NCBI GenBank assembly: GCA_003693705.1
Contig: RBZT01000804.1
Span: 1 to 23,536 of the forward strand
DNA: 23,536 nucleotides
DNA from: Polymyxa betae
Lineage: Eukaryota; Endomyxa; Phytomyxea; Plasmodiophorida; Plasmodiophoridae
Direction of reading: 5' to 3'
Part shown: in pieces, positions 1 through 23,536 of the stretch
Layout: each line of letters begins with the position of its first letter
Numbering within the stretch: the stretch's first letter is position 1
Notes under the pieces: generated by a model
Database searches by the model: none
Seen by the model: only the letters and a program-made list of their open reading frames with translations
Told to the model about the DNA's origin: nothing
Made by a program: the position numbers and the translations under genes

Positions 1-271
1 GAGACGAGATGAGAAACGTATGAATTTTGGAGTTGATCGGAATGGTTGCGTGGAGGCGCTCCTCGCCATTCATAGTAGGGAGACGAGGGGACCCGCGCAG
101 TCCGTGACAGTTAGGGCTCTTCCCCTATAGGAATCGTCAGCAGGGGCGTAGCCCTCTGCGCAGCCCCTCAGGAAGGGCCAGTACGACTGCCTGGTGGTCG
201 GCTGGGCGGCTGCGAGTACTGTCATGCTCAATGGGCATGACATGTGGGAGTAAAACATGTAAAGGACCAGC
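1..271. other. Left edge without a supported gene
   Basis: No convincing gene was seen here. A minus-strand open frame (70-399) overlaps the start of the plus-strand frame at 272-847, but neither shows a recognisable motif. The sequence around 145-175 has CTGCGCAGCCCC-like words resembling the LTR upstream repeats found further right, so this edge may also be transposon-derived. Confidence 0.3.
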
Positions 272-847
272 ATGTTGAAGAGTGCGATCGACCCCAAGCT
301 CGTGGAAGGACGTTCAAGGACCATATCATCCAGTAATGATCTCAAGTTGGTCAGTACATCCTTACAGCAGGCACAGACTCGTGAAGCAATCGAGACCATG
401 TATCCTCCAGACGATCCTAATATGTACTACAGAGTTCCAGCAAGCGCTGACGTCGCTTTATTCAGAAACGACCAGTCATCAGCAAGAGACAAGAGCGCTG
501 TGCTGGGCGAGGTCATCCTAATGTTGGTTCTGTTACATGCACTTCCGGAGAACCCCTTCCCTGAAGCCGAGCTTGAATTCAGTCTACGAGGTTGGCTAAA
601 CCAATGTCGAGAGGCTCATGATTCTCCAACGCATTATAATCGTTTTCTCAAGTCCCTTATCGATGGCTGTGTGTCAGAGCCATGTCTGCGCAGCCCCCGT
701 TGGCGCAGCCCGCATACAGGCCGCGCGCAGTTTGTCAGAGCCATGTCTGCGCAGCTGTGTAAGCTCCAGCCTTTTGATAGTCGCAGAAATAGAACTCTGC
801 TTTATATTCATCTCTTGAAGTCTTTAAATATTCATTTCGGAGCCTGA
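272..847 (+). CDS. Unrecognised 191-aa open frame ending in repeat-derived sequence
   Basis: An ATG-led frame of 191 residues follows an in-frame TAA at 260-262. I do not recognise it. Residues 1-130 look like a mixed helical protein, with a short hydrophobic stretch (VILMLVLLHALPENPF). From about residue 134 the frame runs through the 61-bp repeat that also forms the start of the LTR at 956, so the C-terminal third is repeat-derived. Either a real gene has taken in repeat sequence, or the frame is fortuitous. No intron signals or homology support it, and an antisense frame is also open over its first 130 nt. Confidence 0.22.
   Translation: MLKSAIDPKLVEGRSRTISSSNDLKLVSTSLQQAQTREAIETMYPPDDPNMYYRVPASADVALFRNDQSSARDKSAVLGEVILMLVLLHALPENPFPEAELEFSLRGWLNQCREAHDSPTHYNRFLKSLIDGCVSEPCLRSPRWRSPHTGRAQFVRAMSAQLCKLQPFDSRRNRTLLYIHLLKSLNIHFGA
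672..754 (+). repeat. 61-bp tandem repeat related to the LTR start, copy set 1
   Basis: The word TGTCAGAGCCATGTCTGCGC starts at 672 and again at 733, a 61-bp period. The unit also contains CCCCCGTTGGCGCAGCCCGC and ends with GGCCGCGCGCAGTT. The same unit recurs at 902-1005, where it runs into the LTR. It reads as an amplified or displaced piece of the LTR upstream region. Confidence 0.75.
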
Positions 848-21599: not shown

Positions 21600-21830
21600 G
21601 TTGGCGTTCCGGAGAATTTTAAAAGCGCTTCAAAAATTGACCGTGGCATCGATTTACAAGCGCTTTTAAAAGCACCTCGGGAGATGCTTTTAAAAATTTA
21701 AAAGCGGAGGCCACGCAAACTTGAGAAAAAATTCGGAAAATACCTATTTGTCACTGACTTATAGCATCAGCAGCAAAGTTAAAAGCGCTTTAAAAACCCT
21801 TTAAAAGACGTTCAAAGCTACCGAAAGCGC
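21600..21830. repeat. Cluster of AAAAGCGCTT palindromic words
   Basis: Repeated variants of TTTTAAAAGCGCTT occur at about 21617, 21657, 21685, 21700 and 21779, including GCGCTTTTAAAAGC-type self-complementary words. The segment sits between the polymerase and RNase H parts of the LINE relic and has no recognisable coding content, so it looks inserted or expanded after the element died. Confidence 0.55.
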
Positions 21831-22349: not shown

Positions 22350-23200
22350 CTAGTGCATTAGACATATGAGCGCGTGGGAGGTTGAGTGTCCTGTACGGCA
22401 CCCGATCGAAGGTGGCAGTCGGGGGCCAGGTGCCCTTCGAGATTGCACGTGATGCAGTGCGAAATTTTCGTAGGGTCTTTGGTGTGTCTTGTGTGCTTCG
22501 CCGCAGATTGTGCAGCGAATCTTCCCGCATCTACGGGCTATGGCGCTGTTCGCAGTCGATGGCATGACGATGCTTGCATACGCGTCCCGGGTTCATCTTT
22601 AAAGCAGCTGCTGCATAAACGTTGTCGCCAATCGTGACCCACTTCCGTGAGTTAATTAACAGACTGGGCTTCTGCAGGGTAATTGTAGGCGACTTTGATG
22701 GTGCTCGGCTGATTGAGCTTAATAAGCTCAACAGGTCTCTCTTTGTCGCGAAAGAACTTGAGGATGAGCTTGCTCTAAATTTGTGCTGGTGGGATTCGAA
22801 AGATGACAGCCTGTCGATCCTCGTCAAATTTAGCTTCGTTGTAGGGTACAAGCTTTCGGGTCTATTAAGTGTTTTCGATCGAAAATAGCTCTCGGTTTGC
22901 CAGATTGTCCAGACGCGCAGGCGTTGTCAGGAATAAAAAGACGGGCTGTTCCGGTATCTTCATGCTGAGCGCAATCAGACAACCCCCCCCCCCGAACAGG
23001 CATTTCTCGACCAGCTCAACAACGTCCTCTTCACTGTAGGCAAGCTCCGGGTTCCGGCCTGGCGGAGATTCTCCAGCTCTTGTTCCTGGGCGGGAGTCAG
23101 GACCGGGCATTGGTTTGTAATGCGGCTTTGTCCGCTTGGCCCTGCTCCAGCATCCGAGAGAGGCGTTGAACCTCCTTCAAAGCGATCCTGACAGGGTCAG
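22350..23200 (-). pseudogene. Gag-like ORF1 remnant with zinc knuckles
   Basis: A CX2CX4HX4C zinc knuckle reads CITCNLEGHLAPDC (within 22459-22413). Just upstream RCTICGEAHKT (22529-22491) and VCKHRHAIDC look like two further, altered knuckles in other frames. Further upstream are FDEDRQAVIFRIPPAQI, KERPVELIKLNQPSTIKVAY, and, at the far end, EEDVVELVEKCLFGGGG next to an 11-base C run (22983-22993). The frame changes repeatedly. Zinc-knuckle ORF1 proteins bind the RNA of non-LTR elements; this one is not functional as it stands. Confidence 0.6.
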
Positions 23201-23201
23201 C

Positions 23202-23370
23202 ACTTGAATACCACCCATACCACAATGATATTATTGAAAATTTTTCCAAAAATATCACGTTATAAGATCATTGAAAATTTTTCCAAAAATATCAGGTTAT
23301 ATGACCTTATAACGTGATATTTTTGGAAATTTTTTCAATAATATCATTGTGGTATGGGTGGTATTCAAGT
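23202..23370. mobile_element. 169-bp near-perfect AT-rich palindrome, MITE-like
   Basis: The 65-nt arms (23202-23266 and 23306-23370) match at 63 of 65 positions around a 39-nt centre. The outer ends read ACTTGAATACCACCCATACC. A 32-nt word starting ATTGAAAATTTTTCC occurs three times: direct at 23233-23264 and 23270-23301 (one mismatch) and inverted in the right arm. CAG lies next to both ends (one base offset on the left), possibly a target duplication but too short to trust. It contains no gene. Shape and size fit a foldback miniature transposon or a long hairpin at an element boundary. Confidence 0.7.
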
Positions 23371-23427
23371 CAGGGGCGATTTATCCGTGATGATATTAAG
23401 GATTAATCCAGGATAATATTTGAAAAA

Positions 23428-23536
23428 ATGAAAATATTATTAAAAATAATGACTGATATTAAACTTGAATACATAAAAGATTTTCCCAATTATCTTATCA
23501 GTAATAAGGGGGGTATATATAGCATATATAAAAATA
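23428..23536 (+). CDS. Start of a NUMOD4-like protein, cut by the window end
   Basis: A frame with ATGs at 23428 and 23449 stays open to the last base. From the second ATG it reads MTDIKLEYIKDFPNYLISNK then GGIYSIYKN. The pattern aromatic-x-I-x-x-(F/Y)-x-x-Y-x-(I/V)-S-N-x-G-x-(I/V)-x-S is that of NUMOD4, a small DNA-binding module at the N-terminus of many HNH homing-type endonucleases in phages and large DNA viruses. The nuclease domain would lie beyond the window. Codons are very AT-rich, unlike the E2F and coiled-coil genes. Which ATG is used is open. Only about 29-36 residues are visible, so the call rests on one motif. Confidence 0.6.
   Translation, partial: MKILLKIMTDIKLEYIKDFPNYLISNKGGIYSIYKN

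Follow-up and report, generated by a model that had tools for sequence, protein, structure and literature searches.

What is the short AT-rich tail that closes contig C84 of the Polymyxa betae assembly, and how did it come to adjoin host DNA? The window, i.e. the whole stretch of DNA analysed here (23,536 nucleotides), is this entire contig in an assembly of 24,426,232 bases and 541 contigs; the "edge of a eukaryotic locus" that a sequence-only reading had placed here is thus the edge of the contig. The same reading had offered three origins for the tail: an inserted viral segment, a captured homing nuclease or an assembly join. Our analysis points, with evenly balanced confidence, to a mobile or virus-like element, AT-rich and dispersed, with hairpin-capable ends, perhaps a linear replicon; the tail would be one of its ends. 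Three features of the contig end are needed for the argument:

23202-23370 (169 nt), no strand assigned: terminal palindrome of the element, recognised by its arms, its fold, a base-exact host boundary and relatives on 15 contigs
23371-23409, plus strand: subterminal block, which starts with CAGGGG and contains GGATTAATCC; 92-95% identical to the blocks of C457, C366, C233 and C219
23428-23535, plus strand: 5' part of a NUMOD4-HNH gene starting at ATG 23428 or ATG 23449 and cut by the contig end

Results and Discussion

The contig end

The outer boundary between element and host DNA lies between positions 23201 and 23202, at the edge of a palindrome whose two 70-nt arms (23202-23271 and 23301-23370) are 96% complementary. 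As single-stranded DNA the palindrome folds to -70.4 kcal/mol, compared with -13.9 +/- 2.8 for shuffled sequences (z = -20.3). GC content drops from 0.58 over the 200 nt preceding the palindrome to 0.25 over the 166 nt that follow it. The abrupt shift to AT-rich DNA described earlier is real, but low GC starts with the palindrome itself and not after it; the palindrome, previously treated as a neighbouring feature, is instead the element's own end. Small inverted words that had been noticed around GGATTAATCC are genuine as well and are located in the 39-nt block conserved beside the palindrome. Scans for Rfam families and tRNA genes found nothing in the window, Pfam searches in four frames of the window gave no match, and phage blastn with the contig tail returned one 31-nt match (E 0.5).

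Three further observations concern the window itself. A run of C in host DNA near the junction (22983-22995) is a place where assemblers may slip, and short TTAAAAGCGCTT-type repeats in both orientations occupy 21617-21807. The near-identical peptide stretch HMSCPLSMTVLAAAQPTTRQSYWPFLRGCAEG is common to window positions 70-399 and contig C306 (L084, ~71-322), which indicates a dispersed repeat at the window's other end.

The NUMOD4-HNH gene

From ATG 23428 (second ATG at 23449) a reading frame is open up to the contig end. Its own 36 residues reach 15.4 bits with the NUMOD4 profile (E 0.023), below the Pfam cut-off of 23.4. The NUMOD4 identity proposed earlier was borne out through the sister copy on C366, whose homologous frame shows 94% amino acid identity over the 36 residues, stays open for 92 codons until its contig stops and, at 29.5 bits (E 9e-7), passes the cut-off. 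As to the concern that the frame might close within a few codons, the one on C366 stays open, and the C219 copy breaks off after about 40 codons. The C366 frame has matches to PHROG HNH families (E 3e-18); its contig stops short of the region that Pfam HNH_3 covers, and relatives on C249, C345 and C19 pass HNH_3.

A NUMOD4 profile search of the assembly gave three matches, one over the cut-off (C366, 29.9 bits) and two below it (C219, C249). Searching with the C366 frame returned, at E<=1, 13 matches distributed over 12 contigs; stops interrupt six of these rows. This search did not recover the HNH pieces on C152 and C540, the latter with an HNH_3 match below cut-off; DNA comparison found them. 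Among pairs of HNH copies, young ones carry too few changes for dN/dS and old ones are saturated. An IMG/VR scan with the C366 frame yielded three loci of 39-47% identity; in L080, the one inspected, the largest frame looks phage-terminase-like by eye. An IMG/VR match to the C249 HNH (L066) was taken as chance, with 17 residues only, in a 64% GC stretch.

Copies of the palindromic end

Six contigs, C84 itself among them, each have one match to the contig tail. Relatives of the palindrome on 15 contigs plus a half palindrome on C249 make up 16 palindromic loci, and the host side was inspected for ten ends at nine of them. At nine of these ten ends A[C/G]TTGAATACC meets unrelated host DNA at the identical base; the remaining one (C18, right) reads ACATGAATACC. 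In the other seven loci the palindrome is truncated (C366, C219, C266) or has a differing outer sequence (C264, C449, C428, C178). Directly inside the palindrome stands C[ACT]GGGG, at seven of seven inspected loci. The element end is a palindrome at a base-exact host junction, followed by CNGGGG, the conserved block and an inward NUMOD4-HNH gene, and this composition is well supported. The host genome contains several partial, differently truncated copies of the element, and a captured nuclease without an element was rejected.

Behind the same palindrome and 39-nt block, C457 continues into AT-rich DNA of another sequence, where a 139-codon frame lies that is also open on C539; two unlike sequences behind one terminal sequence are as expected from inverted terminal repeats. 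With a dN/dS of 0.80 over 137 codons and no sign of coding constraint, this frame was rejected as a proven gene. At four of six ends examined, the 120 nt next to the palindrome contain two to three GGATTRAT words (either strand), and two ends lack them; the background, taken from 55.6 kb of other loci, is 0.2 per kb. In the window the two words are a single GGATTAATCC read on both strands. A 32-nt AT-rich motif present twice in C457 (L042, 914-945 and 1141-1172, 97% alike), upstream of minus-strand start codons, may be a promoter or leader.

For fourteen of the 16 palindromic loci a contig end is no more than 3.5 kb away, in zones that comprise about 16% of the assembly; because repeats break assemblies, no telomeric position can be derived from this bias. 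Telomere-like repeats at the 18 loci checked amounted to one 18-nt run (C343). C227 and C405 were dropped as lone palindromes, their other side showing CTGGGG and 89% common DNA over 214 nt; C405 reads N from 1 to 2372 (L044), adjoining the palindrome. On C428 (L050:4683-5040) about 245 nt of other DNA, which contains a readable frame, splits the palindrome, which looks like a gene fragment caught between its two arms.

The alternative that survives best is a foldback or MITE-type DNA transposon, whose ends would be moved by a transposase located elsewhere, with the AT-rich genes as cargo and without a linear or viral stage. Such transposons have palindromic ends, dispersed copies and exact boundaries, as found here. 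The C18 palindrome looks alone, with no adjoining AT-rich block, the C428 palindrome is split, and many palindromes are complete or almost so: all inspected ends except that of C249 retain much or all of it and not half, which again suits a transposon. We nevertheless consider this explanation rather unlikely. C18, the only copy with both host sides visible, has no target duplication by eye, and conserved coding DNA is attached to the palindrome; the terminal block and CNGGGG remain constant across subfamilies, which cargo capture does not predict. The only transposase found beside the palindromes belongs to a DDE_1 element on C98, a gene over the Pfam cut-off that sits between the palindrome and AT-rich DNA, inside the AT-rich stretch, and has inverted end-like sequences on its flanks (by eye). 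A retroelement integrase piece in the assembly scored just below its Pfam cut-off.

A telomere-resolvase-like recombinase

A search for tyrosine recombinases gave 11 matches on eight contigs; the match on C184 is weak (E 0.45), and six rows have stops. NUMOD4-HNH and tyrosine recombinase occur together at six loci, where the recombinase genes are mostly broken: the two are convergent (tail to tail) on C249, C345, C152, C540 and C337, interrupted in the last, and on C233 they share a strand, 2.3 kb apart. C242 has a recombinase, with no HNH seen there. The recombinase fragment of C249 abuts the half palindrome, and a block just upstream of the C540 recombinase is found again at the C98 end and in C457, where it lies 1.3-1.5 kb inward of the palindrome. 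Because NUMOD4-HNH adjoins it, because of the C249 half palindrome and because of the block common to C540 and C457, the same element family appears to encode this resolvase-type recombinase, a connection that is partly shown; that the resolvase belongs to the same element as the palindrome and the NUMOD4 end is probable. Against this connection, the search revealed no resolvase copy next to any of the young palindromes (C84, C366, C233, C219 and C343).

Which recombinase is it? A profile built from an alignment of eight rows, cut as they stand, was compared by hhalign with four phage protelomerases (TelN of N15, Tel of PY54, Valp1, 48ST307) and matched their catalytic domain at 93.5% and E 2.2e-7, in register from SGRR to the tyrosine of LGH..HY. 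As single comparisons of thin profiles, each protelomerase alone gave E 2.8e-5 to 2.2e-4 over 127-146 columns, XerC, XerD and the integrases of HP1, lambda, SEN5 and T5282H, taken singly, gave E 5.7e-4 to 0.091 over 29-46 columns, and integrase/Xer control sets gave E 0.0014-0.0046, one set over 144 columns; these controls comprise phage integrases and XerC/D only. The catalytic set of telomere resolvases is Arg, Lys, Arg, His, Tyr. SGRR, QQKK, HxLR, LGH and HYN were found at aligned positions, scattered over separate pieces with no single copy having all.

In tblastn against 50,697 phage records the C540 piece matched 32 records, and the best 15 of these 32 (E 0.03-0.1) comprise six protelomerases, nine hypothetical or unannotated proteins and no integrase. 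The C249 piece matched 18 records at E 1-10: seven protelomerase, telomere resolvase or telN entries, one N15 gp29, six integrases or XerC, three unannotated and one other. Several results count against a resolvase. PF16684 scores are 21.2 (C249), 19.2 (C233) and 17.9 bits (C540), all below the cut-off of 27, a PF16684 search of the whole assembly gave no match when a control genome did match, and the C-terminal part of the recombinase matches NCBIfam XerA_Arch (E 1e-4). The copy with 21.2 bits for PF16684 has 16.7 bits for the tyrosine recombinase family PF00589. For these three reasons (scores below cut-off, the assembly-wide null and the XerA_Arch match) we name the protein only "telomere-resolvase-like": by sequence comparison it appears nearer to phage telomere resolvases than to the integrases tested, yet it stays below the Pfam cut-off.

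Other searches added little. P0001, the closest resolvase relative, gave no protelomerase against phages (three irrelevant matches), a further point against the resolvase reading, and its structure model alone (pLDDT 38.9) is uninformative. The C249 piece was also compared with PDB sequences; taken alone, the outcome is not evidence, since two coiled-coil surface antigens (E 0.037 and 0.05) rank above TelK (E 0.15). Between resolvase copies dN/dS is 0.11 over 105 codons for the best pair (C249/C233), 0.28 for C249/C152, 0.33 for C233/C152 and 0.13 for C249/C345, where dS is near saturation; C249/C540 was not computable. Copies of the Peptidase_S74 gene described below have a dN/dS of 0.12 over 73 codons. 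These low values suggest that the resolvase and S74 copies stem from lineages in which the proteins worked.

Viral genes and competing origins

Peptidase_S74 is a tail-fibre chaperone domain. An AT-rich Peptidase_S74 gene fragment stands beside the palindrome at the C266 end (L047:4919-5491; 28.7 bits, cut-off 22), and a second, broken AT-rich fragment lies without a palindrome in the otherwise host-like contig C306 (L084:239-1070). Are these the remains of a larger endogenous DNA virus, giant or Polinton-like, of which palindromes, S74 fibre, HNH and resolvase would merely be parts? Both S74 fragments and the low GC speak for it. According to two reports, phaeoviruses carry telomere resolvases (PMC13236599), and Polinton-like viruses have YREC recombinases with one case of NUMOD4-HNH_3 (PMC12220804). 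The assembly holds no match to VLTF3 (PF04947), Capsid_N (PF16903) or D5_N (PF08706), controls being positive for PF08706 only, although missing or withheld stretches may conceal such genes; we regard a virus of this kind as unlikely and rank it behind the transposon. Of the inserted AT-rich segment with a NUMOD4-HNH gene that had been proposed at the outset, the mobile or virus-like character is supported; its strict giant-virus form gains no support from these three hallmark searches.

A hairpin-ended phage-plasmid of a bacterial symbiont, transferred into the host genome, would account for a telomere-resolvase-like enzyme, NUMOD4-HNH and an S74 fibre, all of which are common in phages. We think it very improbable. 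Three short contigs from metagenomes hold the closest relatives found (one relative of the resolvase and two of S74 in the protein database, none of the 139-codon frame); IMG/VR scans with the resolvase, the 139-codon frame and S74 gave no relatives, the distant ones being confined to the NUMOD4 part. That copies of different age with base-exact ends are spread over many contigs suggests an element long resident in this lineage. Least probable of all, and rejected, is an assembly join, i.e. unrelated AT-rich DNA glued to a host contig at the palindrome: the junction is at a contig end, palindromes mislead assemblers and most palindromic loci lie close to contig ends, but the base-exact junction recurs with unrelated flanks, the truncated C219 and C343 fragments have other DNA on both sides, and a DDE_1 transposon sits within the C98 stretch.

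A possible life cycle

Returning to the dispersed element with hairpin-capable ends, sequence comparison of its copies suggests the order palindrome, GGATTRAT words, 139-codon frame, block, resolvase (pointing right), NUMOD4-HNH (pointing left), palindrome. This order was pieced together from overlapping partial copies of different subfamilies, and the terminal sequence is the same at both ends. A complete copy was not seen among the loci examined, which counts against our explanation. The element would be, or would have been, a linear molecule with hairpin-capable ends, and the palindrome a copied or opened telomere; we advance hairpin telomeres as a hypothesis. The resolvase would process the palindromic telomere, the HNH enzyme may aid spread, and the genomic copies would be pieces inserted from the palindromic end. 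A resolvase of the N15 type leaves half palindromes, and the frequency of whole palindromes therefore speaks against a cycle purely of that type; a better fit would be a transposase, or nicking at the base of the hairpin. Tentatively, and with more doubt than confidence, we propose a new class of small (~4 kb) eukaryotic mobile elements, linear DNA with palindromic ends, hairpin telomeres, their own resolvase and NUMOD4-HNH, which would insert through an opened telomere; on the same tentative reading they would be related to, and far smaller than, giant viruses with telomere resolvases.

Comparison with known systems

Telomere resolvases are known from some bacteria. Phage protelomerases have a palindromic target in their own replicon (annotated repeats of 42 bp in PY54 and 56 bp in N15). 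In contrast, the recombinase described here is found in a eukaryotic genome, has a NUMOD4-HNH neighbour, scores below the PF16684 cut-off and goes with a palindrome at an insertion boundary. Cryptons are eukaryotic mobile elements that likewise have a tyrosine recombinase; the long palindromic ends set the present element apart.

Among eukaryotic viruses there is a precedent in the phaeoviruses (EsV-1, FsV-158, Ectocarpus EVEs), described in one report as likewise encoding a telomere resolvase with a telRL-like palindrome, which in the Ectocarpus provirus is internal (PMC13236599); here the palindrome is at the host boundary and comes without a giant-virus hallmark match. Polinton-like viruses with YREC have in common with the present element terminal inverted repeats, a tyrosine recombinase and, rarely, the nuclease: HNH accompanies YREC in two cases, and in one of these it is NUMOD4-HNH_3. 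As far as the accessible text goes, these viruses are 14-40 kb long with capsid genes, and palindromic ends are not mentioned (PMC12220804). Titles and abstract openings from a topical literature search describe no such small palindrome-ended resolvase element.

Conclusions

Palindromic ends with a homing nuclease and a resolvase relative, as the element seems to have, are an unusual combination for a eukaryotic genome. If the resolvase family is truly tied to the palindromic ends, hairpin-ended replicons would be more widespread among eukaryotes; beyond phages, some bacteria and the phaeoviruses (PMC13236599), this would be another eukaryotic genome with resolvases. The finding also bears on the entry of linear viral DNA into host chromosomes.
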